Positions 4,483 through 30,729 of a stretch of DNA of 42,277 nt are shown here, one piece after another. A program made the translations under genes and the position numbers. The stretch is from assembly GCA_022510525.1 (NCBI GenBank), contig JAFLTH010000020.1:1-42277 (forward strand). Direction: 5' to 3'. The notes beneath the pieces are model-generated. The model did not search any database. It was given only the letters and a program-made list of their open reading frames with translations, and had not been told where the DNA came from. The first letter of the stretch is position 1; each line of letters opens with the position of its first letter. The DNA comes from Lachnospiraceae bacterium. Its GTDB lineage: Bacteria; Bacillota; Clostridia; Lachnospirales; Lachnospiraceae.

Positions 4483-5811
4483 TTGAAAAAAATAGATGAT
4501 GTGGCTGTTTCAGTCATACTGCCTTCCTTAAATGTGGGGACGTATATTGATGCATGTTTAAAAAGTGTGGTAAGCCAGTCACTGAAAAAGATAGAAATTG
4601 TATGTGTGGACGCAGGCTCCACGGATGGCACTTTCGAGATACTAAAGAAATACGAACAGGGTGACAGCAGGATAAAAGTGCTGACATCACAAAAGAAAAG
4701 CTATGGCCATCAGGTAAATCTGGGAATGCAACAGGCGTTAGGAAAATATGTGGCCATTGTAGATACTGACGACATGATCCGGCAGGATATGTATGAAATC
4801 CTGTACCAGATAGCAGAGGATAATAATGCCGATTTTGTGAAGGCAAATTATGAAGAAATTTCAAAGAAAAAAGGCGATATTCGGATCGGAAGAACTGTCA
4901 GGATTCTGGAAGATGACAAATGCTATCACCGCCTGCTGAACATGGAGGAGAACCCGTTCTGCTTCCTGTCGCATATTACAGCTACATGGAGCGGTATTTA
5001 TAAGCGGGAGTTTTTAGAAGAAAATCATATTTTGCATAATGAAACTCCCGGCGCTTCCTACCAGGATACGGGATTTTGGTTTCAGACTTATATGTTTGCG
5101 AAAAGGGCATATTTTGTAAACCAGCCGTTTTACCGATACAGAGTTGACAATCCCGGTTCGTCGGTAAACAGCAAAAGCAAGGTATACAGTATCTGTGATG
5201 AATTTGACTTTATCTTGCGGAGGATAAAGGAATGCGAGTTGACAGAGGCCTTTCAGGATATCTTTTGCTATGTCTTTTACAGAAAATATAAACGTAATTT
5301 GGAGCGCATTGCGAAAGAATACCATATTGTTTTTTTAAAACGTTTTTCTAAGGATTTCAAGGGACTTTTTCAAGAAGGACTGTTGCATACAGAAAAATGG
5401 ACCTCGAACAGCAGAGAAGAAATAAAGGAAATTTTAGATGGTCCGGAAAGCTATTATGAAAAGATATTGCACCGGAGGACGCAGTTTCTGAACGAAGTCC
5501 AGCAGTCCGAACAGATTATTCTATATGGTTTCGGAAAAGTTGGGAAGCTTTTGTATGACAATATTGAGCGCAAGGACAAAATCGTTTCTTTTGCCGTTAC
5601 TTCCTTACCGGGCGGTTCTGATAAGGAATCGGTGTCATACCAGGGTATTCCTGTCCGCGAACTGAAGGCATTGCAGGATTATTGCGAATCGGCATGTTTG
5701 GTCATTGCTGTGAAAACACCGGAATACGAGGCGACGATGGAGAAGGAAGCTGGGAAGTATGGATTTCGGAATGTTGCGAGAATGCCTTTTGGGATTTTTG
5801 ATTTTGAATGA
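4483..5811 (+). CDS. GT2 glycosyltransferase with C-terminal Rossmann module
   Basis: The product is 442 residues. Residues 8-110 are a GT2 (GT-A fold) catalytic core with the VSVILPSLN start, the CVDAGSTDGT loop and the DTDD metal-binding motif at 94-97. It should transfer a nucleotide-activated sugar on the cytoplasmic side. Residues 341-442 are a separate Rossmann-like module starting IILYGFGKVGK, of the same type as seven others in the window. The start codon is TTG: GGAGGA at 4469-4474 lies 8 bases upstream and no ATG is available nearby. It is the first gene of the long operon, and the next gene starts within a few bases of its stop. Confidence 0.85.
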   Translation: MKKIDDVAVSVILPSLNVGTYIDACLKSVVSQSLKKIEIVCVDAGSTDGTFEILKKYEQGDSRIKVLTSQKKSYGHQVNLGMQQALGKYVAIVDTDDMIRQDMYEILYQIAEDNNADFVKANYEEISKKKGDIRIGRTVRILEDDKCYHRLLNMEENPFCFLSHITATWSGIYKREFLEENHILHNETPGASYQDTGFWFQTYMFAKRAYFVNQPFYRYRVDNPGSSVNSKSKVYSICDEFDFILRRIKECELTEAFQDIFCYVFYRKYKRNLERIAKEYHIVFLKRFSKDFKGLFQEGLLHTEKWTSNSREEIKEILDGPESYYEKILHRRTQFLNEVQQSEQIILYGFGKVGKLLYDNIERKDKIVSFAVTSLPGGSDKESVSYQGIPVRELKALQDYCESACLVIAVKTPEYEATMEKEAGKYGFRNVARMPFGIFDFE

Positions 5812-5823
5812 GGAGAAATGAGG

Positions 5824-7140
5824 ATGGTGCCCAAGGTTTCCGTTGTGATGGCAGTATACAACGCCGCCCCATATTTAGAGCAGAGTCTTGAGAGTATTTT
5901 GAACCAAAGTCTTTATGAGATAGAAGTGATCTGCGTGGATGATGGTTCAACGGATAATTCTTTGGAATTATTAGAGTCATTTGCGGAAAAAGACACGAGA
6001 ATTAAAGTCATTTCACAGACAAATCAAACAGCAGGAGCTGCCAGAAACAGAGGGATAGAAATTGCTTCGGGGGAATATCTGTCCATACTTGACGTTGATG
6101 ATTTTTTTGAAAAAGATATGCTGAAAAACTGTTACGAAAAAGCCGAACGGGCGGACGCAGATGTTGTAGTGTACAGAAGTGACAGATTTGATATGAACAA
6201 GCAACAGTTCACGGAAAGTAATTGGACAATAAAGCGGGAATATCTGCCAGAAAAAGAAGTCTTTTCTCATAGGGATATGAGTAATATTTTCTACTGTTTT
6301 ATTGGGTGGGCGTGGGATAAGCTGTTTCGTAGGAGTTTTATTGTCGAGAATGGAATTACTTTTCAGCAGCAAAGAAGTATAAATGATTTAGCCTTTGTAT
6401 TTTGTGCGTTGTCAAAAGCCGAGAGAATAACCGTAATAAATGAGATTTTTGCCCATAAAAGGCATAATACCGAAAATGCTATTACAACAAATTATCATAA
6501 ATCGGGAGATTGGCATTGTTTTTACCAGGCACTTATGGCTTTAAAACAACGATTGGAAATGTGGCAGATTTATGATGAATTGAGGATAGATTTTGTAAAT
6601 TATGCCCTGTACTTCTCTTTTTGGAATTTAAAAAAGTTTGAAGGAATACGGGATTTTAATGTGTTTTATGAAACCCTGAAAAATCAATGGCTGCGAGAGC
6701 TGGATATCCTGAATAAAGGGGAAGAATTCTTTTTCGATAAAGAAGATTATTTGAAATTGACACAATTATTAAATATGGATGCAAAGCAGTATCTGTATTA
6801 TCAATCATTAACCGGGAAAGACGGAACATATTTATTTCCGTTTGAGGCTGTTGAAAAAGGTGCAAAAATTGTCCTTTACGGTGCAGGAAATGTAGGACAA
6901 GCTTTTTATCGGCAGATAGTGTTTAGTTCTTTCTGCCATATTGTAGCATGGGTTGATTGTAACTACATGGACAAAGGAGAATGGGTGAGTAATCCAACGG
7001 CAATTTTTGAAGAATGTTTTGACTATTTAGTAGTTGCAATTAATGATTCATTCAACGCAGAGAAGATTATTCATAATCTGGTCCAACAAGGAGTCATGAG
7101 AAACAAAATAATTTGGAGAAAACCTGAAGTATGTATATAA
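5824..7140 (+). CDS. GT2 glycosyltransferase with C-terminal Rossmann module
   Basis: The product is 438 residues. The N-terminal GT2 core shows VSVVMAVYN, CVDDGSTDNS, a GAARNRG stretch and the DVDD motif at about residues 90-93. The last 94 residues (from about 345) form a Rossmann-like module with IVLYGAGNVGQ and a second strand ending in VD. ATG 5818 is also in frame, but AGGAG at 5811-5815 is 2 bases from it and 8 bases from ATG 5824, so 5824 is chosen. The next gene overlaps by 10 bases, indicating translational coupling. Sugar specificity cannot be told. Confidence 0.85.
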   Translation: MVPKVSVVMAVYNAAPYLEQSLESILNQSLYEIEVICVDDGSTDNSLELLESFAEKDTRIKVISQTNQTAGAARNRGIEIASGEYLSILDVDDFFEKDMLKNCYEKAERADADVVVYRSDRFDMNKQQFTESNWTIKREYLPEKEVFSHRDMSNIFYCFIGWAWDKLFRRSFIVENGITFQQQRSINDLAFVFCALSKAERITVINEIFAHKRHNTENAITTNYHKSGDWHCFYQALMALKQRLEMWQIYDELRIDFVNYALYFSFWNLKKFEGIRDFNVFYETLKNQWLRELDILNKGEEFFFDKEDYLKLTQLLNMDAKQYLYYQSLTGKDGTYLFPFEAVEKGAKIVLYGAGNVGQAFYRQIVFSSFCHIVAWVDCNYMDKGEWVSNPTAIFEECFDYLVVAINDSFNAEKIIHNLVQQGVMRNKIIWRKPEVCI

Positions 7141-8723
7141 ATAAACAAATTTTGGATGAAGCCACAAGAGCGGATATATTAAAACCGCAAAATCTTACTG
7201 AAATAGATTTTAAAAAGGATACATGCTATACCGTTTTTGGCGCTGGAAAGGCGGGAAAAATAATCGCTTCTTATGTTATAAACGCGATAAATGAAAAAGT
7301 GATTTTTTGTGATAACAATACAGCAATCCAAGATGATGATTTGAATATTCCAATTTATCCTGTAGAAAAGGCAGCACAAATTCCAAATAATATATTTTTA
7401 TTAGGATTTATGAACAATGATACCGAAAAGTTAAGATCTGCTCAAAGAGATTTAAAAGATAATGGAGTAAATGAGGATAATATTTTTGTTATTGATATGG
7501 CTTCGGGGATTATTGATGAGGCATATTCCTTAGAATTGCAAAAAGTAATGAACATGTTTAATACCATAAAAATACCAATAAAAAGGCAGTTACAAAGGAT
7601 AGAAGAAATTTGCTTTGTTTCATATGGATTTAACGAGTCTAAGGAGAAAAATATTACTGGTGGCCCCAGTGGTGCGATATGTATGCAAAAACATCATTTA
7701 AGGGACTGTTATAAAGGAATTAAGTTATGCTATCCCTATTTTGATGATACTAAGGAACAACTATTGGCGGATAGATTTCCTCATATTACGGACGCTGTTA
7801 TTAAAGCAAGACGCTTGGGACAGAAAAAACAAAATGCGATTTACATAGTGAACGATATATTCAGTGCCTTTGGATTATTTTTAGCTGGGGTTAATTACCT
7901 GTTGATTTTTCATGCGCAGGGTGATATAGTGCGAGAAATGGTGAGGTGGGGTACAAATTTATCAGAGCTGGAAAAAAAACTATTCCATGATGTAGAGATA
8001 ACTACAGTGAGATACGCGAATAGGGTTCTATTTCCCAGTATAGGTGCGGAGAAATATTTTCGAGAGAGTTTTAGTGATGAGCTGGAATTTCGGACAGGCT
8101 TACCACTTTACAATACAATTAATGAAATTCCTACCATTGAGCCAATGGAGGGGATCGTAAGAGATGACTCATATATCACCTTTTTAAGTATAGGACAGAT
8201 GACAGTTTTAAAAGGAATGGATCGGATTCCGGATTTTATAAAAGAATATGCAGATTATTCAGGAAAGAAGGTACGGTGGATATGTGTTGCAGACGGTGTT
8301 TTAAAGAATCAAGTGAGAAACCAAATGGAAGGTATTATGAAACAAAACAGACAGATTGATTTTGTTAATATAGACAGTAAGGTTTCTCATGGAAAAATTT
8401 TTTATTTAATGAACATATGTGATGTATATCTTATGCTTCACAGGGTGAGTATATTTGACTTTTCAACGCTGGAGGCAATGTATAATCGGAAGCCGATTAT
8501 TTTGTCCAATATTTCTGGAAATGATGAATTTAATAAAGAAGACAATATCATGCTACTTGAGGATGACCACGATATGGAACGTGTTGGGCGATATATAGAT
8601 AATCGGCTGTATTTTGGAAATTTGAATTACCAGGTATATCAAAAGTACTTTTCAGAAGAGCCATTTAAAACACGTTATTTTGCTTGCATGGATGAATTTA
8701 TTCAAGATGTGGAGATCGGGTGA
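7131..8723 (+). CDS. GT-B glycosyltransferase with N-terminal Rossmann module
   Basis: The product is 530 residues. Residues about 30-125 are the Rossmann-like module (YTVFGAGKAGK, then a strand ending FCDNN). The remainder resembles GT4-type retaining transferases of GT-B fold: a donor-domain start TFLSIGQMTVLKGMD around 345-360 and a late segment FDFSTLEAMYNRKPII in the position of the E-x7-E-type nucleotide-sugar motif. Here the module is at the N-terminus, unlike its neighbours, so it behaves as an independent domain. It overlaps the previous gene by 10 bases, and the next gene starts 1 base after its stop. Confidence 0.78.
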   Translation: MYINKQILDEATRADILKPQNLTEIDFKKDTCYTVFGAGKAGKIIASYVINAINEKVIFCDNNTAIQDDDLNIPIYPVEKAAQIPNNIFLLGFMNNDTEKLRSAQRDLKDNGVNEDNIFVIDMASGIIDEAYSLELQKVMNMFNTIKIPIKRQLQRIEEICFVSYGFNESKEKNITGGPSGAICMQKHHLRDCYKGIKLCYPYFDDTKEQLLADRFPHITDAVIKARRLGQKKQNAIYIVNDIFSAFGLFLAGVNYLLIFHAQGDIVREMVRWGTNLSELEKKLFHDVEITTVRYANRVLFPSIGAEKYFRESFSDELEFRTGLPLYNTINEIPTIEPMEGIVRDDSYITFLSIGQMTVLKGMDRIPDFIKEYADYSGKKVRWICVADGVLKNQVRNQMEGIMKQNRQIDFVNIDSKVSHGKIFYLMNICDVYLMLHRVSIFDFSTLEAMYNRKPIILSNISGNDEFNKEDNIMLLEDDHDMERVGRYIDNRLYFGNLNYQVYQKYFSEEPFKTRYFACMDEFIQDVEIG

Positions 8724-8724
8724 G

Positions 8725-9996
8725 ATGGAAAGTATCTTGGCTAGTATTGTCATTCCTGTTTATAACAAAGGCCAATATTTGAAGGAATGCTTGGATAGTA
8801 TACAAAGACAGACATATAAAAACTTGGAAATAATTTGTGTGGATGATGGCTCCACTGACAATTCTTATGAAATATGTTTAGAGTATACTCGGACAGATAA
8901 ACGTTTTCGTATTATTAAGCAGAAGAATTCGGGCGCAGCAGCCGCTCGCAATAGAGGTTTGGATAATGCGCATGGGGAATATATAGTGTTTTTGGATGCG
9001 GATGATTCTTTTGACGAGAAGATGATAGAAAAGGCGTGCTTGGCTGCAACTGAGAACAACGCAGATGTTGTTGTATGGGGATACAATGAAGTGGGTATGG
9101 AATCGAATAATACTTCCGTTGTATGTAGAATTCCTAACTATGAAGTTGTTGATCATGATGAGGTAGATTTTGAGGTGATGGAATCTGCCCGTACTGTACC
9201 TTGGAATAAATTAGTGCGCAGGGAACTGTTGATAAGAAAAGCAATTCGCTTTCAAAATATACCGACAGAAAATGATGTGTTTTATTCCAATGCGGTCATA
9301 TTGAGCGCTAGTAAGATTTTTTTTGTAAGAGAGGCGCTGGTAAATTACTCTCGTGGATTACAGGGAAGTATTTCAGTAAGCAGAACTTTGAAAAAAAGTC
9401 ATGCATTGCTGGCATATGATCAAGTGTATCAGTTCATTAAAGAGAATGAAGAGAAATTTGTTGTTCCGTATATTGATAAAACTTTAGATTGGATTATGGG
9501 AAATATTATTAAAGAAAATAATTTTGTAAGAGTCAAGAGCATTAGTGAAAATTACAAAAAATGCAAGGCACTGAAAAACGCATTTCTTGAAAACGAAAAT
9601 AATCCATCTATTAAATTCAGAAACAGAAATTTAATAAATTTGTTGAAGAGTATGGACTTAGTAAATTTACCATCAAATATATATATTTATTCAATGGGCA
9701 TTTTGCAGCAAATAGTAGAAAATGCACATAGACACAACAAGAAAATAGCTTTGTGGGGGTGCGGTGTAAAAGGAAAAAAATTTATTGATGCAATGAAAGA
9801 GTGCGGTATACAGATTGACTATGTTGTTGATATGGATAAGTCTAAACAGGGAACCCTTTACAAATCATACCTGATTCATAACTATTTGGATATTCAGGAT
9901 GTAATTCAAATTATTATAATACTGACCAGTTCTATTTTGGAGGAAATTTCAGAATTGTCCCAGAATAAAGAGATTATTGATTTTACAAAATTTTAA
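8725..9996 (+). CDS. GT2 glycosyltransferase with C-terminal Rossmann module
   Basis: The product is 423 residues. The GT2 core is clear: ASIVIPVYN at the start, CVDDGSTDNS at 39-47, AAAARNRG near 71-78 and DADD at 91-94. Residues 339-423 form the recurring Rossmann-like module (IALWGCGVKGK, then YVVDMDKS), here slightly shortened. A longer TTG-initiated frame from 8680 is possible, but ATG 8725 follows GGAG by 10 bases and comes directly after the upstream stop (8721-8723). It is part of the same tightly packed operon. Confidence 0.85.
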   Translation: MESILASIVIPVYNKGQYLKECLDSIQRQTYKNLEIICVDDGSTDNSYEICLEYTRTDKRFRIIKQKNSGAAAARNRGLDNAHGEYIVFLDADDSFDEKMIEKACLAATENNADVVVWGYNEVGMESNNTSVVCRIPNYEVVDHDEVDFEVMESARTVPWNKLVRRELLIRKAIRFQNIPTENDVFYSNAVILSASKIFFVREALVNYSRGLQGSISVSRTLKKSHALLAYDQVYQFIKENEEKFVVPYIDKTLDWIMGNIIKENNFVRVKSISENYKKCKALKNAFLENENNPSIKFRNRNLINLLKSMDLVNLPSNIYIYSMGILQQIVENAHRHNKKIALWGCGVKGKKFIDAMKECGIQIDYVVDMDKSKQGTLYKSYLIHNYLDIQDVIQIIIILTSSILEEISELSQNKEIIDFTKF

Positions 9997-10010
9997 AGGA
10001 GAATGCCGAT

Positions 10011-11240
10011 ATGCGACATATTCCGGTGGTCTTTGCTACAGACAATAATTATAAGTTTTTCTTGATAACTCTGACTTCCTTGGTCTCTCATGCAGCGTCA
10101 GATACTTTTTATGATATTTATATACTTGTGGACAATGATTTTTTGGCTGAATCTGAACAAGAGATTAGAGAATATTTGAAAAACAAAAGTCATAATTGTG
10201 ATTTGAAATTTATCAATGTAGGAAACATTTTTAATGATGTGACCATGCAGCTTAAAACTGTTACGAGGCCTACATTTTTCCGATTGCTGGCACCTCAATT
10301 ATTGTCTGAAGATAGATGCATATATCTGGATACAGATGTTGTGGTTTTGGCTGATTTGCAAGAATTGTATGATTTTTCTTTAGCTGATAACTATGTTGCC
10401 GGAGTTAAGGCACCAGGATATATACTAATGTCTTTTAAAGAAGAATACTGCAAGCAAGCATTATTACCTGATTTGGATCAGTATATAAATGCAGGAGTCT
10501 TGCTGATGAATTTAGACAAAATGCGACAGGATGAAGTAGTCGTACAATTTTTAAATAGACTGCCAATGAATATGGAGTTCCAAGATCAAGACATTATTAA
10601 TAGTGTGTGCTATGGGAAAATAAAGTTTTTGCAATTCAAATATAATGTGATGTCAAAGTATGCCCACTGGTCTGTAAAAGATTATAATGGAATCTATTCT
10701 GAGACAGAATTGCGCAGTGCATGGAATGAGCCGAAAATAATACATTATGCGGATAGATTTAAGCCTTGGAAAAACTTGAATTGCGCATTAGGTGAGTTTT
10801 GGTGGGATATATGTAAGAGGACTTCGTTGTGGGAATATTTTTATAATAATTTACAAAACGAATTTTTTTCCAAAGCAATATACCAGTCACCAGGTAGTAC
10901 AATAACTACAAAAAAGGTTGCTAAATTATTTGATATTGCATTTGATCGGAAGTACGTGATTTATGGAGCGAAGGATAAAGCGAGAGATTTAGTTGCATAT
11001 ATGATTGAAAAAGAAATAAATATTGAATTTATAGTTGTTTCAGAAATGACGGATAATCCTTTGGAAATAGAGGGCATAAAAGTTATAGATCTACTAGAAG
11101 CACAAGACAAAATGTATGACAAAACAATATTAATTGCTACTAGAGAACGATTTCATACAGATATTATTTCAAATTTATTGAAGTACAAATATAAAGAGTG
11201 TATACCAATTTCAGACGAATGGAAAGCGAGTGAAAGCTAA
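10011..11240 (+). CDS. GT8 glycosyltransferase with C-terminal Rossmann-like module
   Basis: The product is 409 residues. Residues 1-270 match the GT8 family (LgtC/GspA-like retaining transferases): IPVVFATDNNY at the start, the DTD metal-binding motif at 107-109, NAGVLLMNL, and an IIHYADRFKPW segment that supplies the second metal or acceptor motif. Residues 313-409 form a degenerate copy of the local Rossmann-like module, starting KYVIYGAKDKAR, in which the last glycine of the GxGxxG turn is lost. AAGGAG lies upstream of ATG 10011. The acceptor is unknown. Confidence 0.82.
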   Translation: MRHIPVVFATDNNYKFFLITLTSLVSHAASDTFYDIYILVDNDFLAESEQEIREYLKNKSHNCDLKFINVGNIFNDVTMQLKTVTRPTFFRLLAPQLLSEDRCIYLDTDVVVLADLQELYDFSLADNYVAGVKAPGYILMSFKEEYCKQALLPDLDQYINAGVLLMNLDKMRQDEVVVQFLNRLPMNMEFQDQDIINSVCYGKIKFLQFKYNVMSKYAHWSVKDYNGIYSETELRSAWNEPKIIHYADRFKPWKNLNCALGEFWWDICKRTSLWEYFYNNLQNEFFSKAIYQSPGSTITTKKVAKLFDIAFDRKYVIYGAKDKARDLVAYMIEKEINIEFIVVSEMTDNPLEIEGIKVIDLLEAQDKMYDKTILIATRERFHTDIISNLLKYKYKECIPISDEWKASES

Positions 11241-11263: not shown

Positions 11264-12514
11264 ATGAAAGAGAATATTGATAATATCCGGTATTTGTTAT
11301 CCGATGCCGTTTGGTACGAGGATGACCAAATTTGGGTATCAGCAATGGGATTTAACGGGTTATTCCGATATGATATAAATGACAATAAAACGGAGTTTAT
11401 TGGGAGTTTTCCGAATGAGGAGAGATTTGAAAAAAGCTTACATGGCAAAGCAATTAGAGTACAAGACGAGATTTATTTTCTGCCTGACAGATCAAAATAT
11501 GTACATGTTTATAATTTAGGTACAGGTGTGTTTTCATCCTACGATGTAAAAATGGAAGGTAGGATGAGATGTGGGAATGGTTTCTATTATGAGGGAAAGC
11601 TATATTTTATTTGCGGTGGATCTGAAATCGTATTTTGTTGTATTGATACATTAACGAAGAAGATAGATAAACATAAGATAGATATAGCGAATTATAAATA
11701 TGGGATAAGTAAAGATATTGTTTTGTTGGGGGATAAAGTTTATTTTACCTGTCGGTATCCCAATGTTGTTGTGGAATATTCTTACAGGAATAACACATAT
11801 AAAAAATATTTTGTAGGAAAAGAGCAGGATGGATTTTCAACGATCTGCCATGATGGAAATGTTTTTTGGCTTTCTGGGAAAAAGGGGATTGTACGATGGG
11901 ATACATATTCATCAGAGGTAATTGATTTTAACATGTTTCCCAAAGGATTTGGTATGTGCATAGTTCCTAGCTCGGAATCGAAGCAAATAGAATTTGTACA
12001 TGGTTTTAGTAGTAAATATTTTGAGGCAGAAGTACCATTTTGGTTTAGTGCATTTTTTGCTGGAAAGGTGTGGCTATTCCCGTTTAGAACTAATATGATT
12101 ATTTGTGTTGACGTATTGACTAGAAGCGTCACGGAGTTCTACTTACAGGATGAGCAGGAAGACGAGGAATCTCTGCAGGCTAAATATAGGTATACTCACT
12201 GTCATTATTTAGGAGAAATGCAGAATAATAAGCTTGTTTTTTTCTCCACTAAATCAAAGAAAATTAGAGTAATTGAGCAGGAGAGTGAACCTGTTGTAAG
12301 AGAATTTGTTCTAAGATGTAAAGAACCAGAAGACATGATCTCATATTTAAATGGTGATAAAACTTATACATGTTATGAAGATGGGGAACTATATAACCTT
12401 GAGGATTTTTTGACTACAAAATTAGAAGGAAATATAGGTGATTCTTCTAATAAAAAAAGTGTTGGCATGTTAATTTATGAAACTATCAGGAGTGAAAGTA
12501 ATGAAAGAAAATAG
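11264..12514 (+). CDS. Cytoplasmic beta-propeller-like protein
   Basis: The product is 416 residues with no signal peptide or membrane helix. Roughly seven units of 40-55 residues repeat a pattern of hydrophobic strand, Gly/Asp turn, IYF/VYF/VWLF strand, then a YD/VD-containing turn and a T-x2-hydrophobic strand; examples are EIYFLPDRSKYVHVYNL and KVWLFPFRTNMIICVDVL. This is typical of kelch/WD-like propellers, usually binding platforms. A related protein is encoded at 24696. AGGAG precedes ATG 11264 by about 7 bases. The next gene overlaps its last codons. No catalytic motif is recognised; it may scaffold the glycosyltransferases or recognise the acceptor. Confidence 0.6.
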   Translation: MKENIDNIRYLLSDAVWYEDDQIWVSAMGFNGLFRYDINDNKTEFIGSFPNEERFEKSLHGKAIRVQDEIYFLPDRSKYVHVYNLGTGVFSSYDVKMEGRMRCGNGFYYEGKLYFICGGSEIVFCCIDTLTKKIDKHKIDIANYKYGISKDIVLLGDKVYFTCRYPNVVVEYSYRNNTYKKYFVGKEQDGFSTICHDGNVFWLSGKKGIVRWDTYSSEVIDFNMFPKGFGMCIVPSSESKQIEFVHGFSSKYFEAEVPFWFSAFFAGKVWLFPFRTNMIICVDVLTRSVTEFYLQDEQEDEESLQAKYRYTHCHYLGEMQNNKLVFFSTKSKKIRVIEQESEPVVREFVLRCKEPEDMISYLNGDKTYTCYEDGELYNLEDFLTTKLEGNIGDSSNKKSVGMLIYETIRSESNERK

Positions 12515-13007
12515 AAGGAAAAAATTTTTAATTATAGCAATCTTTGAATGTATTGTAATTATAATGCTTATAATCCTTTACCGCTGGAGCAAAAAAAAAT
12601 ATACGAGAGAAATAGAAGAAAAAGATGCCACAACTAAAAAAGACAGCTTGATTAAGGAGTCATTAACACAATGGGTTCGAATTGAGCATGAGAGAAAAAA
12701 CATTGCCGCCTTATTAAATCAAATGGGCTATAGAAAGGTTGCTATCTATGGATATGGTTTTTTGGGAAAAGCATTGGAAAGGGTATTGCAAGGCGATGAT
12801 ACCGCGACATTATCCTGCGTCATTGATAAAAATGCTCATTTCAGGGAACATGGAGAAAAAATATTGCAACTCAAGGATGAGTTACCAGAACTTGATGTTA
12901 TCATTGTCACCAGCCTTTTTTATTATGAGGAAATTAATGAAGAATTGAAAAATTTGGGAATACAAGCTGATATCATTTCCCTTGATGCGCTTTTATTTCA
13001 GTTATAA
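12501..13007 (+). CDS. Membrane-anchored stand-alone Rossmann module
   Basis: The product is 168 residues. A basic N-terminus (KENRRKK) precedes one membrane helix at about residues 9-27, followed by a charged helical linker (30-70) and a Rossmann-like domain (75-168) with VAIYGYGFLGKAL and a second strand ending CVIDKN. By the positive-inside rule the anchor would leave either end possible, but RWSKKK after the helix suggests a cytoplasmic C-terminal domain. ATG 12477 is in frame, but AGGAG at 12488-12492 sits 8 bases before ATG 12501, which is preferred. It overlaps the propeller gene by 14 bases. It is the only copy of the module not fused to an enzyme. Confidence 0.65.
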   Translation: MKENRRKKFLIIAIFECIVIIMLIILYRWSKKKYTREIEEKDATTKKDSLIKESLTQWVRIEHERKNIAALLNQMGYRKVAIYGYGFLGKALERVLQGDDTATLSCVIDKNAHFREHGEKILQLKDELPELDVIIVTSLFYYEEINEELKNLGIQADIISLDALLFQL

Positions 13008-15458: not shown

Positions 15459-15566
15459 AAGTTACTATAGAGGAATTAAAACGTATACTGATATAATTAT
15501 GAATTGTATTACCATGAGCCGATAGAAGTTGGAAGTCATGGCTACATATTTAAAAATAATGATTGA
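15434..15566 (+). pseudogene. Short coding-like remnants
   Basis: Two short frames lie between neighbouring genes. One (15434-15496, out of frame with the preceding gene) reads KYKFYDPLEVTIEEL and the other (15495-15566) reads NYELYYHEPIEVGSHGY. They resemble each other around the Y-x2-Y...P-(L/I)-EV core, as if one segment was duplicated or both derive from a lost gene. Neither has a start codon with a ribosome binding site. I cannot name the parent gene. Confidence 0.3.
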
Positions 15567-15578
15567 GGTAGGTATATT

Positions 15579-16316: not shown

Positions 16317-16345
16317 ATAATTGTTAATAAATTGGAGGATAAACT

Positions 16346-18622: not shown

Positions 18623-19804
18623 ATGACGCTTAAGAAAAAAAGAATAGGAATATTTGGTGCAGGTAACTTTGGTCAATATGTGTACGATGTAATGAAACAC
18701 CACAGTAATAAAGAAATAATTTGCTTTCTGGATAATAATGCTGGTAATATATTAAGAGAAATTCCCGTTTGGTCTGTAAGTGAATTGAAAGTACATATGT
18801 TGGAAATTGACCAAATATGGTTGGCTGTAAAGAACTTTTATCAGATGGGTGACATTGTTTTACAACTGCATGATATTGGTGTTAAAGAAATTTGGATTAT
18901 AAAACCCGATCTGTGGAATAAAAGGATGCTGGAGCAATCCATTTTTGAAATAGAAAACAGATATATGTATTATTTAGATATTTCAAAGAAAGCTGTTATT
19001 ACGAAGCTAGAATTTGACGTATGTAATGTCTGTAACTTAAATTGCAGGGGATGTGGACATTTTGCTCCTATCTTTAAGGGAGAGTATGTTCGGGTTGAAG
19101 ATTTTCAGAAACAGATGGATCTACTTTCACGGAGGTTTGCAAATGTATTTCGTTTTAGACTGATGGGAGGAGAACCATTTTTACACAAAGAATTTGATAA
19201 ATTTATTAAGATTGCAAGGGAAAAGTTGCCATATACCCATTTGGAAATTGTGACTAATGGATTACTTTTAAAGAATGTGCCAGATTACATATGGCAAGCA
19301 ATTATAGAGAATGAGGCAGTTTTAAATATTTCTCTATATCCGCCCACATTTAGGATAAAAGATGAAATAGTTGCAATGCTAGGTGAGAAGGGAATTGAAT
19401 ATAGCTTTGGCAGTGGTCTTGAGCAATATAATGAAGATGGGATTATTGAAGAATTTCATAAATGTTTTACAGAAAACAAAACTCACAATCCTATAATAGC
19501 GTTCCGTCATTGTATGTTTAAAAGTTGTCATTATTTGCGGGATGGAAAAATATCAAAGTGTTCATATCCATTGCTCTCTTATAGTATTAATGACTATTAT
19601 CAAAAAAAATATATTGTTGAAGAGGCAGATTATGTGGATTTGGAAGATACAAAAATTCTCCCTTGGGATATGGTGCGCAGACTTCGTGCAGCAACACCTT
19701 TTTGTGCGTATTGTATAGAGGATGCTCCTGTGAGATTTTCCTGGCAAACAGGGGGAGATTACCGTTTTGAAGACTATATTATAGAAGAGGGGGAAGAGAA
19801 ATGA
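18623..19804 (+). CDS. Radical SAM protein with N-terminal Rossmann module
   Basis: The product is 393 residues. Residues 5-100 are the recurring Rossmann-like module (IGIFGAGNFGQ, then CFLDNN at 34-39). Residues about 125-300 are a radical SAM domain with the CX3CX2C cluster motif at C137, C141 and C144 (CNLNCRGC), followed by RLMGGEPFLH, the usual GGEP SAM-binding segment. Later cysteines (CMFKSCHYL, KCSYP, PFCAYC) suggest an auxiliary iron-sulfur cluster as in SPASM/twitch proteins. It would catalyse a radical reaction on a sugar, peptide or nucleotide-linked substrate. AAGGAA lies upstream of ATG 18623. The next gene overlaps by 4 bases (ATGA), so they are coupled. Confidence 0.8.
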   Translation: MTLKKKRIGIFGAGNFGQYVYDVMKHHSNKEIICFLDNNAGNILREIPVWSVSELKVHMLEIDQIWLAVKNFYQMGDIVLQLHDIGVKEIWIIKPDLWNKRMLEQSIFEIENRYMYYLDISKKAVITKLEFDVCNVCNLNCRGCGHFAPIFKGEYVRVEDFQKQMDLLSRRFANVFRFRLMGGEPFLHKEFDKFIKIAREKLPYTHLEIVTNGLLLKNVPDYIWQAIIENEAVLNISLYPPTFRIKDEIVAMLGEKGIEYSFGSGLEQYNEDGIIEEFHKCFTENKTHNPIIAFRHCMFKSCHYLRDGKISKCSYPLLSYSINDYYQKKYIVEEADYVDLEDTKILPWDMVRRLRAATPFCAYCIEDAPVRFSWQTGGDYRFEDYIIEEGEEK

Positions 19805-21121: not shown

Positions 21122-23929
21122 ATGCTTAATAACTCTCAAAATGATAGTCATAAAGACAATAATTCCAATGTTGCAATTTTAGGTCGTTATAACAACGCAA
21201 ATCTTGGAGGAAAACTTACAGTTTTATCCACATACTCTACTGTAACGGAGCTTGGGTTTAATGCAACGATTCTAAGGCTTAAAGAGCATGATGACAATCC
21301 GGAACTTATATATAACAAACTCTGTAAATTTACGAAGGATTGTGTAAATAACCCTGAGCCGCCATCAAGCTGGAATAATTATTTTGACAATTTTTTGCTA
21401 TGTTCGGATTGGACATTTAGTAAGACATGGTTTCTCCCGTTAAATATACGCCTTTTTGATTGGGTAAAAGACGGTAAGAATATCATCAGCTTCGCCGCAA
21501 GCTTCGGAACTGCAACAGGCGGCTATTTAGAGTCAGATTATCCCTTGTTGGCAAAACAGTTGAACCGTTTTACATCATTATCAATAAGAGAGCAAACAGG
21601 CGTAGAAATGTGCAAAAAAATCGGGGCTGTTCATGCCGAGCAGGTGGCTGATCCTGTTTTTTCTCAAAGAAAGGATTTTTATTTAAATATAGCTAACCTT
21701 TCAGTTCATAAAACTGTAGGGTATAGATATGCTGCGGTATATTTGCTCGATATGAATGCCGAAGCGATTAAGATCGCAATAAAAACGGCAAAAAGAGCAA
21801 ATTTAATTCCTTTTTTTGTTATTGCATTCAAAGATCGCGAATTGGTTCACTTAGTACAAGATTATGACTATGCGTCGGTCGGTCAAGACGGCGTATCGGA
21901 TTGGCTTTATTATTTGAATAATGCAGATTACATAATTACAAATTCTTTTCACGGTTTGTGTATGTCATACATTTTTGGAAAAAATTTTTCAGTGATTGAT
22001 CGAAAGGGTTTTCCAAACGTGAGGGTGAAGTCTATTCTCACTCAATTTGGCACAGAAAACAAATTTATTTTAACCGAGGAGGATATCTCAACCTCTGTTG
22101 AAAGCGCTATAAATATGCCTTATGTCAATTTACAACTTGACGAAATGTACAAAAAAACACGGGAATTTGTTATTAATGCACTAAATAATAAAAAAAATGA
22201 TAACAAAAAGGTCACATGTACCGATTTACTGTCTCGTGATTTATGTACAGGCTGTTTTGCTTGTGTGTACTCATGTCCCAAGAACTGTATTGTCCCTGAT
22301 AGTGATAAGAAAAGCGGTTTTATATATCCGCAGATAAAGAGAGAGGACTGCATTAACTGCGGATTATGCGCAAAAGTTTGTCCGATATTGCAAAACAAGA
22401 AACCTGAGAAGGAAAACACTTACGTTTACTGTGGATACAGCCTTAACAAAGAAATACGTTACAAATCCACAAGCGGGGGGTTTTTCACTGAGTTGGCGCT
22501 AAGCTTGTTGGAAAAAGGCAATACTGTTGTATTCGGTGCAGCTTATGAAACCCCATTTAAAGTATGCCATATTGAGATTACCTCTCCCGAGGATCTTCCG
22601 AAAATCAGACAATCCAAATATGTTCAAAGTGAAATATGTGGCGCATACCCCAAAATTGAAAATCATCTGAACATGGGTAGAACCGTAATGTTTTGCGGCA
22701 CACCCTGTCAATGCGCAGCAGTAAAGCAGTACATGGAGTTAAAAAGAATAAATACGGAAAAATTATATCTTGTTGATTTTATTTGTCATTCTGTAAACAG
22801 TCCATATGCTTATTCTGCTTATCTTCATGATATTGAACATCAATACGGAAAAACAATAAAACAGGTATGGTTTAAAAACAAGGAGAAAAGCTGGAAGCAG
22901 TTCTCTACACGCATAGATTTCAACAATTCCGATAATTATTATTTGAAGGATCGATATGAGGATAGCTTTTACAAAGGATTTTTAAAATATCATCTTTTCT
23001 CTAGACCAAGCTGCATGGATTGTCAATTTAAAGGAATGGAACGGATAAGCGATATCACCCTTGCAGACGCATGGGGAATAAATATGCAAAGCGGCGATGA
23101 CTGTCATGGTATCAGCACCGCAATATTACATTCCGAAAAGGGAAAAGAATTATTCGATTCTATAGAGAACAAAATATATTGTGAAGAAAAAACGATGGAT
23201 ATGGTAACGAAAGGAAATGTGAATTTGAATAATTCCGTAAAGCCCGGACAGTTTTCGGATTATTTTTATCAGAGATTGGCTCAGAAGATTCCGTTTTCAC
23301 AGATAATAGAAGAAATTGATTCCGGAAATTTAGCTAATGGAAGCACCGACTCAGACACCATGGTGCAGAATCCCTATCCGAATGTTGTTGTGAACGGTGC
23401 AATTATAAGAGCACACCCTACCGCACAAATTATAGTTCAAAACGGTGGCGAGCTTATTCTTAACTATGGCTGTTTCCCCTGCAGTAACGCCGAGTGCTTT
23501 ATAGATTTACGGGAAGGTGCTAAGCTGCTTGTCAACGGGACTTATAAGATTTACTATAGCTGTCGTATCGTTGTTCATAAAAATGCAACACTTATTTTGG
23601 GAAACGGATATATGAATACCGGCACAAAGGTAATCAGCCAAAAAAGTATTACAATAGGAGACGCATATATTGGTCCCGATTGTTATATTATTGATAGCGA
23701 CTATCACAGGATATTGGATAAGGAAGGAAATGTGATAAACCCTCCTGCTCCCGTGAAATTTGACGGTCATGTATGGCTCGGACAAAACGTAACCATTTTA
23801 AAGGGAGTTACAATCGGAAAGGGTTCTTGTATAGGCGCTAAAAGTCTTGTTACAAAGGATATTCCTCCAAACTGTCTTGCGGCGGGAAATCCGGCTAGGA
23901 TCATAAAATCGGAAATCTGTTGGGAATAA
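21122..23929 (+). CDS. Pyruvyltransferase, FrhB-like and hexapeptide acyltransferase fusion
   Basis: The product is 935 residues with three domains. Residues about 15-355 match polysaccharide pyruvyl transferases (VAILGRYNNANLGG start, late ITNSFHGLCMSYIFG motif). Residues 370-425 hold two 4Fe-4S motifs (C375, C378, C381, C385 and C410, C413, C416, C420), leading into an FrhB-like coenzyme F420 hydrogenase/dehydrogenase beta domain (about 430-735) with TSGGFFTEL and FCGTPCQCAAVK. Residues about 750-935 are a left-handed beta-helix acyltransferase of the maltose O-acetyltransferase type, with DSDYHR and the closing GNPARIIK. Such pairs (PssK/CsaB-like plus FrhB-like) are common in polysaccharide loci, but a three-part fusion is unusual. 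AGGAGG lies 11 bases upstream of ATG 21122. Confidence 0.85.
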   Translation: MLNNSQNDSHKDNNSNVAILGRYNNANLGGKLTVLSTYSTVTELGFNATILRLKEHDDNPELIYNKLCKFTKDCVNNPEPPSSWNNYFDNFLLCSDWTFSKTWFLPLNIRLFDWVKDGKNIISFAASFGTATGGYLESDYPLLAKQLNRFTSLSIREQTGVEMCKKIGAVHAEQVADPVFSQRKDFYLNIANLSVHKTVGYRYAAVYLLDMNAEAIKIAIKTAKRANLIPFFVIAFKDRELVHLVQDYDYASVGQDGVSDWLYYLNNADYIITNSFHGLCMSYIFGKNFSVIDRKGFPNVRVKSILTQFGTENKFILTEEDISTSVESAINMPYVNLQLDEMYKKTREFVINALNNKKNDNKKVTCTDLLSRDLCTGCFACVYSCPKNCIVPDSDKKSGFIYPQIKREDCINCGLCAKVCPILQNKKPEKENTYVYCGYSLNKEIRYKSTSGGFFTELALSLLEKGNTVVFGAAYETPFKVCHIEITSPEDLPKIRQSKYVQSEICGAYPKIENHLNMGRTVMFCGTPCQCAAVKQYMELKRINTEKLYLVDFICHSVNSPYAYSAYLHDIEHQYGKTIKQVWFKNKEKSWKQFSTRIDFNNSDNYYLKDRYEDSFYKGFLKYHLFSRPSCMDCQFKGMERISDITLADAWGINMQSGDDCHGISTAILHSEKGKELFDSIENKIYCEEKTMDMVTKGNVNLNNSVKPGQFSDYFYQRLAQKIPFSQIIEEIDSGNLANGSTDSDTMVQNPYPNVVVNGAIIRAHPTAQIIVQNGGELILNYGCFPCSNAECFIDLREGAKLLVNGTYKIYYSCRIVVHKNATLILGNGYMNTGTKVISQKSITIGDAYIGPDCYIIDSDYHRILDKEGNVINPPAPVKFDGHVWLGQNVTILKGVTIGKGSCIGAKSLVTKDIPPNCLAAGNPARIIKSEICWE

Positions 23930-23968: not shown

Positions 23969-24706
23969 ATGAACTATAAACTAAGAGTATCAAGGGTTTT
24001 AGTAACAGGAGGAGGTTCGGGAATAGGACTTGCCATTACTAAGGCACTGCTGGGCGAAGGCTGTCATGTGTGTATCTGCGGCAGAAGCATCGAAAAACTG
24101 AACAAGGCAAAGGAAGAAATAGGAAGCGAACGACTTTCCGTAATGCAGTGGGATATCCGTGATGTTTCGATTATCAGAGAGAAAATCAACGAAGCGGCGG
24201 CACTTACAGGGGGGTATTTAGATGGACTGGTAAATAATGCAGGGGTGTTTTTGCCTCACAACGATTGGAAACCGTGGAATGAAACAAGCGAGCAATGGGA
24301 TAGTGTATGGGACACAAATTTAAAAGCTCCCATGTTTCTTATAAGACAGTTTTCTACTTACCTCCATCAAAATAATCTTAAAGGAAATATTTTGTGTATT
24401 TCATCAATTGAATCGTTACGTTATGAGGTGTTGGGAAGCTATACTGGCAGCAAGTACGCATACTCCAGAATGATACGAAGTCACGCAAAACAGGTTTTAA
24501 ATCTAGGAATTGTAATAAATGGAATAAATCCTGGTGTTACAGTATCGGATATTCACCCGTCACCAATCTATAATGGTTGTGAAATAAAAAGAGCAATTAA
24601 GGCTGAAGAAATTGCCGAATGTGCACTTTTTATGATGTCCGAGCAAGCGGCGATCTGCTGTGGCGCTATGCTGAATGCTGACGGAGGATATTATAATGCA
24701 ATTTGA
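23969..24706 (+). CDS. Short-chain dehydrogenase/reductase
   Basis: The product is 245 residues, a typical length for a classical SDR. TGGGSGIG at 13-20 is the cofactor-binding turn, LVNNAGVF is the structural NNAG motif, and the catalytic set is Ser in CISSIES with Y158-x3-K162 (YTGSK). It would oxidise or reduce a hydroxyl or keto group with NAD(P)H, probably on a sugar nucleotide. AAGGAGGT stands 8 bases before ATG 23969. The following propeller gene overlaps its last bases, suggesting coupled translation. Confidence 0.85.
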   Translation: MNYKLRVSRVLVTGGGSGIGLAITKALLGEGCHVCICGRSIEKLNKAKEEIGSERLSVMQWDIRDVSIIREKINEAAALTGGYLDGLVNNAGVFLPHNDWKPWNETSEQWDSVWDTNLKAPMFLIRQFSTYLHQNNLKGNILCISSIESLRYEVLGSYTGSKYAYSRMIRSHAKQVLNLGIVINGINPGVTVSDIHPSPIYNGCEIKRAIKAEEIAECALFMMSEQAAICCGAMLNADGGYYNAI

Positions 24707-25805
24707 TATGCATTCTTATCAGGCAATAATGCAAAATGTTTTTTCTGCAAACAAAGACATGAATGTGATTGGGGTACATGTACGTCGGCTTATTTCTAAT
24801 GTGTCTTCCGAAAAGTATATAGGTTGTGTGTATTGCAAAAATCAACATGGTGAAGAAGTGTGTGTTAATATAAATAATTCTGCGTCTCAAACTATGTTGT
24901 ATTATCCTGAAACACAAAAGACAGAATTTATTGGAAGTCTTCCCAATTTGAAATTTTCCTACACCTGTGGTGCTTATTATGAGAAAAACGGATATGCGTA
25001 TGGATTTCCGAGAAACTCCAATAAACTGCTTAGAATCAATATAAACGAAAAGACGGTTGAAGAAATAGATATAGGTCTGGATCATTTTAAAATTGCTGAT
25101 AAAGAAATTTTATATGGGCATCATTACGGCGGAGCTTTGATCAATGACAAAATAATACTGCCTCCAAGAGTAGGCGCAAATTATATCTTATGTATAGATT
25201 TAAACAACTACACTTGTAAAAAAATTTTTAGTCCGGTTTTGGAAACTAACAGGTTTAACGGAGCAATTCTTCACCCTAATGGCAATATTTATTTTATGCC
25301 ATCCAATAAATCATCTGTAATAGAATTTGATCCGCTGACTGAAAATGTAGGAATAATCGGCCAGCCCGTTCCTGTAAATTTATTTGGCGGAACAGTTTAC
25401 TTAGATGGCTGTATTTACAGTTTTTCTCAGAAGGAGGGATTGTATCGAATTGATATAGCCAATTCCAAAACCGAGCTTGTAACAGACAAAGCGGGAGATA
25501 CTCCAATAGGCGGCTGTTACGGAACAATTACTCATTTTAATGGTAAAATATACGGGATACCCGGAAATTTCAGTAACTTATGTGAATATGATCCTGTCAC
25601 CGAAAAAGCGCGCATATATTGTACCTTTGACGATGGAAGATTTAATAAAGATAAGTGGGCAGGAGGTCAGCTACTTACCAACGGAAATATTTATATGGTT
25701 CCGGCATTTGGGAGATTTGTGGCAGAAATAGTATTTGACGGTGAGCCGGTTATTTCTGAAGAAATGCGTGGACTGATTTTTTCTGGTAAGTTTAAAGGTA
25801 TGTGA
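24696..25805 (+). CDS. Cytoplasmic beta-propeller-like protein, second copy
   Basis: The product is 369 residues with no signal peptide. About seven repeats of 45-50 residues show the pattern Gly-Gly/Gly-Ala, hydrophobic strand, Asn-Gly turn, IYF/IYG/IYM strand, then FDP/YDP or IDI and T/S-x2-hydrophobic; examples are NGNIYFMPSNKSSVIEFDP and NGKIYGIPGNFSNLCEYDP. It is a propeller fold, like the product at 11264, with cleaner repeats. ATG 24675 is in frame, but CGGAGGA at 682-688 of the 24000s lies 8 bases before ATG 24696, which is preferred. It overlaps the SDR gene by 11 bases. Lack of catalytic motifs suggests a binding or scaffold role. Confidence 0.62.
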   Translation: MQFDMHSYQAIMQNVFSANKDMNVIGVHVRRLISNVSSEKYIGCVYCKNQHGEEVCVNINNSASQTMLYYPETQKTEFIGSLPNLKFSYTCGAYYEKNGYAYGFPRNSNKLLRININEKTVEEIDIGLDHFKIADKEILYGHHYGGALINDKIILPPRVGANYILCIDLNNYTCKKIFSPVLETNRFNGAILHPNGNIYFMPSNKSSVIEFDPLTENVGIIGQPVPVNLFGGTVYLDGCIYSFSQKEGLYRIDIANSKTELVTDKAGDTPIGGCYGTITHFNGKIYGIPGNFSNLCEYDPVTEKARIYCTFDDGRFNKDKWAGGQLLTNGNIYMVPAFGRFVAEIVFDGEPVISEEMRGLIFSGKFKGM

Positions 25806-25878
25806 ATTTTGTAAGGATGCTGTTGTTGATTTCAAGAATCACGCCGCATCGGAATATAGGACGGATTTGAATATTTAG
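25801..25878 (+). other. Short coding-like tail between genes
   Basis: In a frame different from the propeller gene, 25 codons ending at TAG 25878 read CEFCKDAVVDFKNHAASEY and so on. Residue use looks coding but there is no start signal. It may be the C-terminal scar of a deleted gene. It could also be chance. Confidence 0.2.
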
Positions 25879-25892
25879 AGGAGAGATGATTG

Positions 25893-28011: not shown

Positions 28012-28048
28012 GGATGAATGATTTGGATTGTAAGAGAGGGATGAACCG

Positions 28049-29420: not shown

Positions 29421-29436
29421 AAAGGGATGAAAATTA

Positions 29437-30729
29437 ATGGACAAGCAGCATTATGAGGAAATGGTCTCGACTCTTTCTGATTTGGAGCAAGAGGGGAAAA
29501 TCCAAGGGAAAAGCATATATTTGTTCGGTCACTGCAACGCTACGGAAGAACTTGCAGATTTACTTATATCGCGGGGATATCATCCAGTGGCGATTTTGGA
29601 TAATAACAGGAATAAGCATGGAAATGATTATAAAGGAATTTCAATAGTCCCGCCGTCAGATATTTTGTCAAAGCAGCAGGAGGAAACATTGGTTTGTATC
29701 GCTGCCAGAGCTTATGCCGCCATGTCTGACCAGCTAAAGAGGTTGGGATATAAAGGACAGGTCAAGAAACTGGTGGATTATAATAGTTATGCTGACTATT
29801 CGCTTTCTGATGAAACAATTGCAAGAATGAGAGCAAGAGCTGCACGCGGGATGAAGGCGCTGGATTCGGTTACAGAAAAATATCCGGGCTATTTCAGAAT
29901 CCTTTGCCCGTTCCAGGCTCTTGGTGATATCTATTTTATGATGTCATACCTGCCATATTTTCTAGAGAAGCGTAAAAAAAAGAAATGTGTGATCTGTGTC
30001 ATAGGTAATGCTTGTAGTCAGGTGGTAAAGTTATATTTCAACAATGGAAACGGTAATGTCAAGGCGCTGGTGGGAAACTTTCAATATGCGGTTGAGATTT
30101 TTTCGCAGAAAGATATAGATGAACTGATCCAGGCAGCGATCTACACGCGGGACCAGGAGAGCTATATAGCTCATCAGGACAGACCATATGTGAATGATCT
30201 ATTTAAGGCTCTTTATAGAAAAAAGATCCCGCTGGAGCAGATTTATTGCTGCGGTGTGTTTGGACTGCCGAAAGATACGGCCCCGGTTTTGCCAACGGAT
30301 TTTGCAGAATATGAGGAGCTGGAGATCATCCCAAAAAATAATGCAGTCATCTTGTCTCCATATGCCAAATCAGTTACAGCTTTACCGATAGAGATTTGGA
30401 ATGATGTGGTTTCTTATTACAAGAATCTTGGAAAAGCATGTTTTACAAATGTAGTTGGTGATGAGAAACCCTTAGAGGGAACAATTGCAATTAGCCCTAA
30501 AATAAATGAAATTCGGTCGGTTGTTGAGAGAGCAGGATGTTTTGTGGGGATAAGAAGTGGAATGTGTGATGTGCTCAGAACAGCGGATGCTGAAAAAACA
30601 GCGTTATTCCCTGATTATAACTATTGCGATACCCAGTGGAAGTCCATAAATATGTATTATATGGATGGTTGGAACAATATTGTGGTTAAGGACGGTTTCA
30701 GATGGGAGGATGCAATATGTCTGAATTAG
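29437..30729 (+). CDS. GT9-like glycosyltransferase with N-terminal Rossmann module
   Basis: The product is 430 residues. Residues about 24-120 are the recurring Rossmann-like module (IYLFGHCNATEEL with degenerate glycines, then AILDNNRNK). Residues about 150-430 resemble GT9 heptosyltransferase-like GT-B enzymes: FQALGDIYFMMSYLPYFL resembles the GDxL..tPal start, VILSPYAKSVTALP the donor-domain start, and GCFVGIRSGMCDVL the G-x-R-S-G-x-x-D signature near the nucleotide site. With the SIS isomerase and the HAD phosphatase nearby, a heptose-like donor is plausible. The HAD gene overlaps its end by 13 bases. Confidence 0.72.
   Translation: MDKQHYEEMVSTLSDLEQEGKIQGKSIYLFGHCNATEELADLLISRGYHPVAILDNNRNKHGNDYKGISIVPPSDILSKQQEETLVCIAARAYAAMSDQLKRLGYKGQVKKLVDYNSYADYSLSDETIARMRARAARGMKALDSVTEKYPGYFRILCPFQALGDIYFMMSYLPYFLEKRKKKKCVICVIGNACSQVVKLYFNNGNGNVKALVGNFQYAVEIFSQKDIDELIQAAIYTRDQESYIAHQDRPYVNDLFKALYRKKIPLEQIYCCGVFGLPKDTAPVLPTDFAEYEELEIIPKNNAVILSPYAKSVTALPIEIWNDVVSYYKNLGKACFTNVVGDEKPLEGTIAISPKINEIRSVVERAGCFVGIRSGMCDVLRTADAEKTALFPDYNYCDTQWKSINMYYMDGWNNIVVKDGFRWEDAICLN

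Follow-up and report, generated by a model that had tools for sequence, protein, structure and literature searches.

A minimal Rossmann module carried by diverse glycan enzymes in a Lachnospiraceae contig and in related loci

Minimal Rossmann domains are familiar from several groups of bacterial proteins. Rex carries such a domain together with a DNA-binding part, and in NeuD/PglD-type enzymes it is part of the enzyme itself, the classical proteins ending in a hexapeptide acyltransferase; PglD is the uridine-nucleotide case. The CoA_binding_3 domain (PF13727) is found in the large phosphoglycosyl transferases (PGTs), such as WbaP, and in CapD/PglF-like dehydratases, and is described as non-catalytic and common to these two unrelated kinds of glycan enzyme (PMC10942596). 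The same account reports that the domain of unknown function (DUF) of WbaP is stabilised by uridine mono-, di- and triphosphate (UMP, UDP, UTP), holds the dimer together and is given a role in nucleotide sensing, and EpsZ of Myxococcus is modelled as controlled via dimerisation (PMC12802240). Here we describe a related module in a 42,277-nucleotide stretch of DNA from a Lachnospiraceae bacterium (assembly GCA_022510525.1, contig JAFLTH010000020.1, positions 1 to 42,277), referred to as the window, which is one contig (C103) of a 3.5 Mb genome. By sequence profile, eight segments of the window are copies of one accessory domain, a Rossmann module of about 100 residues.

The first-pass annotation of this DNA had placed such a module at eight sites, and all eight are borne out: at the C-terminal end of the proteins starting at 4483, 5818, 8725 and 10011, at the N-terminal end of those starting at 7131, 18623 and 29437, and alone in the protein at 12501. 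A profile built solely from 24 modules that lie outside the window, on other contigs of this genome, recovers exactly these eight among the 95 window open reading frames (ORFs), at expect values (E, set for 100 sequences) between 2.2e-16 and 1.2e-8; the letters of these 24 modules are independent of the window, but the choice of members is partly circular, as they were originally recruited with a profile of the eight. The next-best real window ORF scores 0.03 and the best of 680 shuffled window proteins, searched with the same profile, 0.06. The recruiting search gave 34 domains, from which an IspD-like protein (L005) was dropped by eye as a false match, and the resulting 32-row alignment lacks a genuine match, the N-terminal domain of a contig C134 protein (L002 5678-6925) that was taken for LicD.

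The eight segments all start with a strand-turn-helix unit; their second strand mostly closes with an acidic residue, and a later helix carries I-x-x-x-L. The glycine-rich hYGxGxxGK motif and the D-x-N-type end of strand 2 proposed in the first pass hold in part: the first glycine is present in all eight, the second and third in six each (both lost in 10011 and 29437), and the acid closing strand 2 in six, being absent from 4483 and 10011. Several pairs of the eight match by phmmer alone (best 1.8e-5 in a search of eight sequences), and identity to the 12501 copy is only 14-25% in the alignment of the eight segments.

All eight modules lie on the forward strand. The family 2 glycosyltransferase (GT2) protein at 4483-5811 ends in a module (5482-5784, E 5.5e-11) with an intact G-loop, YGFGKVGK, and a replaced strand-2 acid (FAVTS), and the GT2 protein at 5818-7140 in one with YGAGNVGQ and VDCN (6835-7125, E 1.6e-12). 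The GT-B protein at 7131-8723, whose glycosyltransferase part matches Glycos_transf_1 (Pfam, E 9.4e-9), opens with a module containing FGAGKAGK and CDNN (7191-7502, E 1.5e-10). A third GT2 protein, at 8725-9996, ends in a module with WGCGVKGK and VDMD (9709-9993, E 3.1e-13), whilst the C-terminal module of the GT8 protein at 10011-11240 (10923-11225, E 1.2e-8) has a degenerate G-loop, YGAKDKAR, and no strand-2 acid. The stand-alone protein at 12501-13007 holds its module at 12708-12995 (YGYGFLGK, IDKN; E 2.2e-16). The radical S-adenosylmethionine (SAM) protein at 18623-19804 begins with a module (18623-18916, FGAGNFGQ, LDNN; E 4.3e-14), as does the protein at 29437-30729 (29479-29781, E 1.3e-13), where the G-loop is degenerate (FGHCNATE) and the acid kept (LDNN); this last protein, earlier labelled GT9-like, has no Pfam match at 0.01.

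A C-terminal module closing one gene repeatedly adjoins an N-terminal module opening the next, in the window (6835-7125 and 7191-7502) and in two other stretches (L002 8452-8754 and 8080-8385; L001 12964-13239 and 13281-13565, and 16026-16307 and 16527-16832). A GT2-like protein (L156 13531-15216) has two tandem modules on its C-terminal side, and two further double-module proteins occur in L064 and L072.

On profile evidence, the module belongs to the Rex / PglD_N / CoA_binding_3 group of minimal Rossmann domains. In profile-profile comparison, the enzyme-borne modules reach 98.3% with Rex (86 columns; the Rex alignment has 12 rows, of which one is NeuD and one apparently a wrong ORF, with Rex confirmed by NCBIfam in four others tested), 98.2% with NeuD/PglD (88 columns), 95.7% with the N-terminal part of CapD-like and 82.7% with that of WbaP-like proteins, against 40.8% for a short-chain dehydrogenase/reductase (SDR) control. 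Stand-alone and enzyme-borne modules match one another at 99.1%. Sequence-profile matches in the PDB include 3nkl (2.9e-10), 2g6t as second-best, Rex 2vt2 (3.7e-8), VioB, WbaP (about 0.009, over its residues 147-227) and many other Rossmann proteins. Since Pfam labels single members as PglD_N, CoA_binding, Methyltransf_14 or C2185-like_N, the family is known piecemeal.

The likeness to each described family has its limits. With Rex (NCBIfam PRK05472 models) the modules have in common the G-loop, the strand-2 acid and a K-x-G...G-x-P-V stretch, but they differ in being attached to glycan enzymes, and the eight all fall short of the Rex cut-offs (weak module matches in 5818 and 29437, 13.6 and 14.9 bits). 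The resemblance to PglD-type N-terminal domains proposed in the first pass is upheld: 15 of the 32 modules of the genome alignment match PF17836 (PglD_N; compare TIGR03570) at E of at most 0.1, six of 11 genome-wide matches lie above the cut-off, and in the window 18623 passes (28.3 bits, cut-off 23.4), 29437 reaches 14.4 bits and the other six have no listed match; unlike the NeuD/PglD acyltransferases, none of the eight window proteins has a Hexapep match. The proposed resemblance to Methyltransf_14 (PF08484) is real but weaker, with six of the 32 modules matching at E of at most 0.1 (best 6.7e-14) and, in the window, only 8725, at 18.7 bits and thus below the cut-off of 23.5. C2185-like_N (PF22674) matches four of the 32 (best 4.3e-17) and none of the eight. 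Whereas the WbaP domain goes with a four-helix membrane bundle, the window modules sit at either end of soluble enzymes or behind one hydrophobic segment: a PGT domain is matched in none of the eight, and a hydrophobic segment above the cut-off (a single one) is found only in 12501. The domain itself is thus of a known kind; its deployment on diverse glycan enzymes was not found described, no title or abstract opening among the papers listed by searches of open-licence PubMed Central covering this module array.

Rossmann motifs are common, which, together with the low identity to the 12501 copy, would suit an explanation by chance or convergent likeness of Rossmann-like stretches. This is extremely improbable given that the window-free profile finds only the eight, that the 680 shuffles give nothing below 0.06 and that the SDR control scores 41% against 98% for Rex and NeuD. 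SDR epimerases have Rossmann folds, and the module was found on none of 36 tested.

The eight copies are a large undercount for the genome, which holds 43 module matches at E of at most 1e-4 with the 32-row profile; evenly spread, these would give 0.5 per 42 kb, against eight in the window, and among the matches listed 31 of 35 sit on contigs C103, C104 and C134. Another 24 genomes of the genus have between one and 32 matches each, and 16 genomes from other families of the order between none and four. Wider surveys of the family and the phylum scored part of the first-look candidates, so that this genome (G000) gives 33 and 25 there, compared with 43 in the dedicated count. On that scale, a match at 1e-5 is present in 128 of 150 family genomes, 97 of which have just one to three, and in 108 of 199 genomes of the phylum, with clusters also in some genomes of other families (totals up to eight). 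Of 12 short-frame match places fetched from the phylum survey, NCBIfam named five, four as Rex and one as NeuD. GT2, GT4 and FkbM proteins lead among 100 module genes drawn at random from 469, a set in which GT-D, DUF4422 and deacetylase proteins are present as well.

The range of partners was assessed in 126 fetched loci (46 + 80), where proteins were clustered without their module by single linkage at E 1e-8; the two sets share several contigs, so that some genes are counted twice in cluster sizes. Modules were called at 1e-3 for counts in loci and at 1e-5 for a set of 744 distinct modules. Related loci contain 39 partner clusters with at least four members, several of which belong to the same superfamily (methyltransferases, radical SAM proteins, glycosyltransferases) and hence do not amount to 39 unrelated families. 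Representatives of 20 clusters gave Pfam matches to FkbM, GT4, radical SAM, CTP_transf_like, RgpF, TylF, other SAM methyltransferases, WbsX, a DXD-type glycosyltransferase, ATP-grasp TupA, GT11, a hexapeptide transferase, TOD1/MUCI70 and DUF1796; GT2 was matched weakly, two representatives had no match and one was the stand-alone protein. A multi-pass fusion partner was sought as a clue to an interaction partner and discarded, as only one of the module proteins (253 + 597 + 80) has two or more hydrophobic segments.

The module is distributed unevenly among the enzymes of these loci. In the 80-locus set (two empty seeds skipped), it is carried by 44 of 45 FkbM proteins, 97 of 141 GT2, 44 of 124 GT4 and 16 of 32 radical SAM proteins, but by none of 53 proteins from three families that supply precursors (SDR epimerases 0/32, IspD-like proteins 0/18, nucleotidyltransferase 0/3). 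For GT2 and FkbM against the supply families, Fisher's test gives 4e-26, genes in related loci not being independent. A pure rule, by which chain-acting enzymes have the module and supply enzymes do not, is weakened by cluster K19, nine cytidylyltransferase-like proteins that all have a C-terminal module (representative, the one protein tested, CTP_transf_like at 7e-15). The module therefore marks mainly, not only, enzymes that act on the glycan chain. K19 and K22 (C-terminal module; no Pfam match in the one tested) form a recurrent pair in the same seven loci, at L051 9441-11744 and 12975-14285 and also in L059, L064, L036, L068, L141 and L062.

The first-pass annotation had named as refuting its proposal that the module be an ordinary family-specific part of each enzyme, found without co-occurrence. 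Co-occurrence on diverse enzymes of glycan loci is massive, so that this half is clearly false; the other half is partly true, in that the end carrying the module is constant in 565 of 600 proteins of the 39 clusters (the GT4 cluster is the main exception, with 34 N-terminal and 22 C-terminal) and the module tree follows the partner family. On a tree of 203 modules, 55 changes of partner class are needed, compared with a mean of 139 (range 130-146) after shuffling, and stand-alone modules form nearly one group (two changes). An explanation in which each enzyme family keeps its own Rossmann subdomain, with a common fold and no common job, is consistent with this, with pocket residues that vary by class, with the near-universal presence in FkbM proteins and with NeuD/PglD-type enzymes, where the domain is an enzyme part. 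We nevertheless regard it as unlikely. GT2 proteins with and without the module (97 and 44) and GT4 proteins with and without it (44 and 80) occur in the same loci, so the catalytic folds of both do not need it; GT2 modules require about 20 changes on the tree (20 counted), not one; and the module, concentrated as it is in glycan loci, occurs in enzyme-free form as well. The agreement of the tree with the partners, together with the 20 GT2 changes, suggests that modules were inherited with their enzymes but repeatedly re-fused.

In the stand-alone protein 12501, an N-terminal segment of strong hydrophobicity (hydropathy 3.08) is followed by a linker, with a tryptophan that is invariant in the protein's family, and then by the module. 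At 23-32% identity to 49 relatives, 12501 is divergent within this conserved family, whose members have about 158 residues and the same layout and in which the N-terminal hydrophobic segment is often Gly/Ala-rich; invariant columns of the 50-row family alignment include G84, G89, I108-D109 and T137. Hydropathy of the segment, taken as a simple average and not as a topology prediction, is moderate, with a median of 1.86 among 91 complete proteins, of which 79 reach at least 1.6 and 40 at least 1.9, compared with 50 and seven of 504 other module genes. The first-pass claim of a stand-alone module on a membrane helix is thus supported as to the conserved family and its hydrophobic segment, and from the hydropathy the protein is likely to be membrane anchored.

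Relatives of the stand-alone protein are encoded in 130 candidate stretches of the genome collection, of which the best 80 were fetched. Most of the records are labelled Lachnospiraceae or carry genus names, for example Roseburia, Acetatifactor and Blautia; the few exceptions include Muribaculaceae and Bacteroides. The protein was scored in 78 of these best 80 loci, exactly once in 66; two of the 93 stand-alone proteins counted there are partial. A further module gene is present in 79 of the 80 loci, the exception being a 3.5 kb contig, and the 58 full-length loci have a median of seven further module genes, with the module on 40% of other genes of at least 100 residues. Across the family, all 14 genomes with a stand-alone match have at least four modules (its own counted), compared with 17 of 136 others (Fisher 1.5e-11); the cut-off of 1e-25 used here misses the window's own 12501, so that absence at this level is not absence of divergent forms. 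Of the 19 family-wide stand-alone matches, five are fused forms, located in longer frames of 257 to 526 codons.

Such association invites an explanation in which the modules are docking tags that pair with one another and with the membrane-anchored stand-alone copy, thereby gathering the chain-acting enzymes, much as the first-pass annotation had proposed for 12501 as a membrane hub tying diverse enzymes into one assembly. Apart from the reality of the stand-alone family, its hydrophobic segment and its company of module genes, this would fit the dimerisation mediated by the related domain of WbaP, as reported in PMC10942596, and an exchange between stand-alone and GT2 modules, the stand-alone module being the nearest relative of eight GT2 modules (two of them on fragments at a locus edge). 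Yet 18 stretches from 13 genomes negative for the anchored form contain 80 module genes and, among these, no stand-alone gene with a hydrophobic segment (the single short module gene leaves no room for a helix before the module); likewise, no stand-alone protein was found on contig C134 of this genome, which has 13 module genes, and, by the hydropathy measure used here, 12 of the 91 stand-alone proteins have no segment that is even weakly hydrophobic. As an obligatory hub, the protein was rejected on the strength of these arrays without one. In general, modules from the same locus resemble each other no more than modules from different loci do: among 23 class pairs, two have a permutation p below 0.02, unadjusted, those below 0.05 being FkbM with RgpF, GT4 with radical SAM and stand-alone with GT2, where within-locus similarity is slightly higher (0.143 vs 0.132, p 0.046, also unadjusted). 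Locus-wise co-evolution, considered as a sign of pairing, was accordingly set aside for want of a general signal, and locus-wise matching of modules is at most slight. Neither the hub nor the single assembly of the first pass is established by these results, and docking through the stand-alone copy is doubtful.

The explanation we favour, and hold tentatively, is that of an accessory nucleotide-binding, nucleotide-responsive regulatory or oligomerising module; it is preferred to the hub and to the family-specific part because the nearest tested precedent is the WbaP domain, alongside the modelled control of EpsZ. A minimal Rossmann module, fused mainly to enzymes acting on the growing glycan in surface-glycosylation islands, would bind a nucleotide in the classical pocket formed by the G-loop and the strand-2 acid, and the bound nucleotide would control the activity or oligomeric state of the attached enzyme, as in WbaP. 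In some partner classes the pocket may have been changed or lost, leaving a structural or contact role, and the stand-alone form, if its hydrophobic segment anchors it, would place the same module at the membrane. The 744 distinct modules retain the first glycine in 97% of cases, the second in 79% and the third in 65%, and their strand 2 ends in Asp in 82% and in Asp or Glu in 84%. By class, Asp or Glu persists at this position in 99% of stand-alone modules, 97% of those on FkbM, 94% on GT4 and 100% on radical SAM proteins, whereas the figure is 68% for GT2, 12% for RgpF-type and 10% for cluster K8 modules. This pattern speaks for nucleotide binding in most of the classes and points to class-specific change elsewhere.

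Several findings weigh against this explanation. The strand-2 acid is missing from 118 of the 744 modules, concentrated in certain classes, and the middle glycine is kept in only 9% of stand-alone modules. Compared on their own, the stand-alone modules score 60.2% with Rex, 30.6% with NeuD, 2.2% with CapD-like, 2.9% with WbaP-like and 6.8% with SDR profiles, so that membership of the Rex / PglD_N / CoA_binding_3 group holds for the enzyme-borne modules, whereas the stand-alone ones fall below the SDR control with the CapD- and WbaP-like proteins. The sequences do not choose between nicotinamide adenine dinucleotide (NAD(H)), as in Rex, and uridine nucleotides, as in PglD and WbaP; given the similarity to Rex, NAD(H) is an equal candidate ligand. 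Finally, none of the 80 stand-alone-protein loci, each covering up to 10 kb on either side, contains a flagellin gene, leaving flagellin unsupported as a general acceptor.

Because the acid is lost class by class and the middle glycine is mostly missing from stand-alone modules, one ligand for all modules is unlikely; the common ligand suggested in the first pass is not borne out, pocket residues differing by class, and a single one for all was rejected on the class-wise loss of the acid. A bolder proposal, of a lineage-specific assembly-line tag, would have the nucleotide-responsive module on glycan-touching enzymes and not on the main sugar-nucleotide supply families, the enzymes being switched or gathered together with the membrane-anchored copy as docking point; we consider this distinctly unlikely.

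In the window itself, the glycan genes adjoin the start of a flagellin gene (42145-42277, forward strand; first 44 codons, truncated at the window end; Flagellin_N E 6.1e-6, above the cut-off, and tblastn), a layout that agrees with that of flagellin glycosylation islands, and flagellin may be the acceptor here. About 240 bases upstream of the flagellin ATG at 42145 (window 41881-42277, forward strand), TAAA-N15-GTCGATAT resembles the consensus of sigma-28 flagellar promoters. Several hydrophobic segments occur in just one window gene of 100 residues or more, the Glt symporter 33431, and thus no multi-helix flippase or polymerase is seen. Module genes have flagellin genes as neighbours in stretches fetched from G127, G142 and G138 too, the G138 stretch containing just two module genes; in G142 a homologue of window gene 425 (7e-157) accompanies them. 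Flagellin was found in 19 of 19 genomes searched; these records give contig numbers only, and nothing is drawn from them. The notion that all module arrays are flagellin islands is not supported by the flagellin count in the 80 stand-alone loci.

The window further resembles the type A flagellin cassette of Clostridioides difficile (CD0240-CD0244), by protein family only. That cassette is reported to contain methyltransferase, cytidylyltransferase and glycerophosphotransferase-like genes (PMC10714395, PMC4441256); the window counterparts are the methyltransferase 15579, the nucleotidyltransferase-aminotransferase 16346 and the Glyphos_transf protein of gene 425 (425-1798). FkbM genes are also reported in flagellin glycosylation islands of Geobacillus (PMC5109656). 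Window positions 13068-18193 encode a GT8 protein with a long unmatched C-terminal part, the SAM methyltransferase and the nucleotidyltransferase-aminotransferase fusion, which together with gene 425 broadly correspond to the protein types in the C. difficile cassette. The proteins at 11264-12514, which has no Pfam match, and 24675-25805 both look propeller-like to the eye, and an 828-residue protein (L087 14018-16501) matches both gene 425 (3e-177) and 11264 (4e-12), a fusion linking the two. A 935-residue protein (21122-23929) joins pyruvyl transferase, iron-sulphur (Fe-S), FrhB/FdhB-type and hexapeptide domains, and that at 36951-39044 combines a CBS domain with a citrate lyase ligase C-terminal domain, with ten matches in the fetched loci including its own.

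These findings bear on how bacteria coordinate the many soluble enzymes that build one surface glycan; that functionally unrelated enzymes have such a domain in common is described as puzzling in the WbaP study (PMC10942596). The 43 matches in one gut bacterium, the 39 partner clusters and the clear contrast between FkbM and GT2 proteins and the supply families make the hypotheses of a common ligand, a common partner and no common function directly testable with a handful of purified modules, and the module profile helps to recognise such glycan loci in unannotated genomes.

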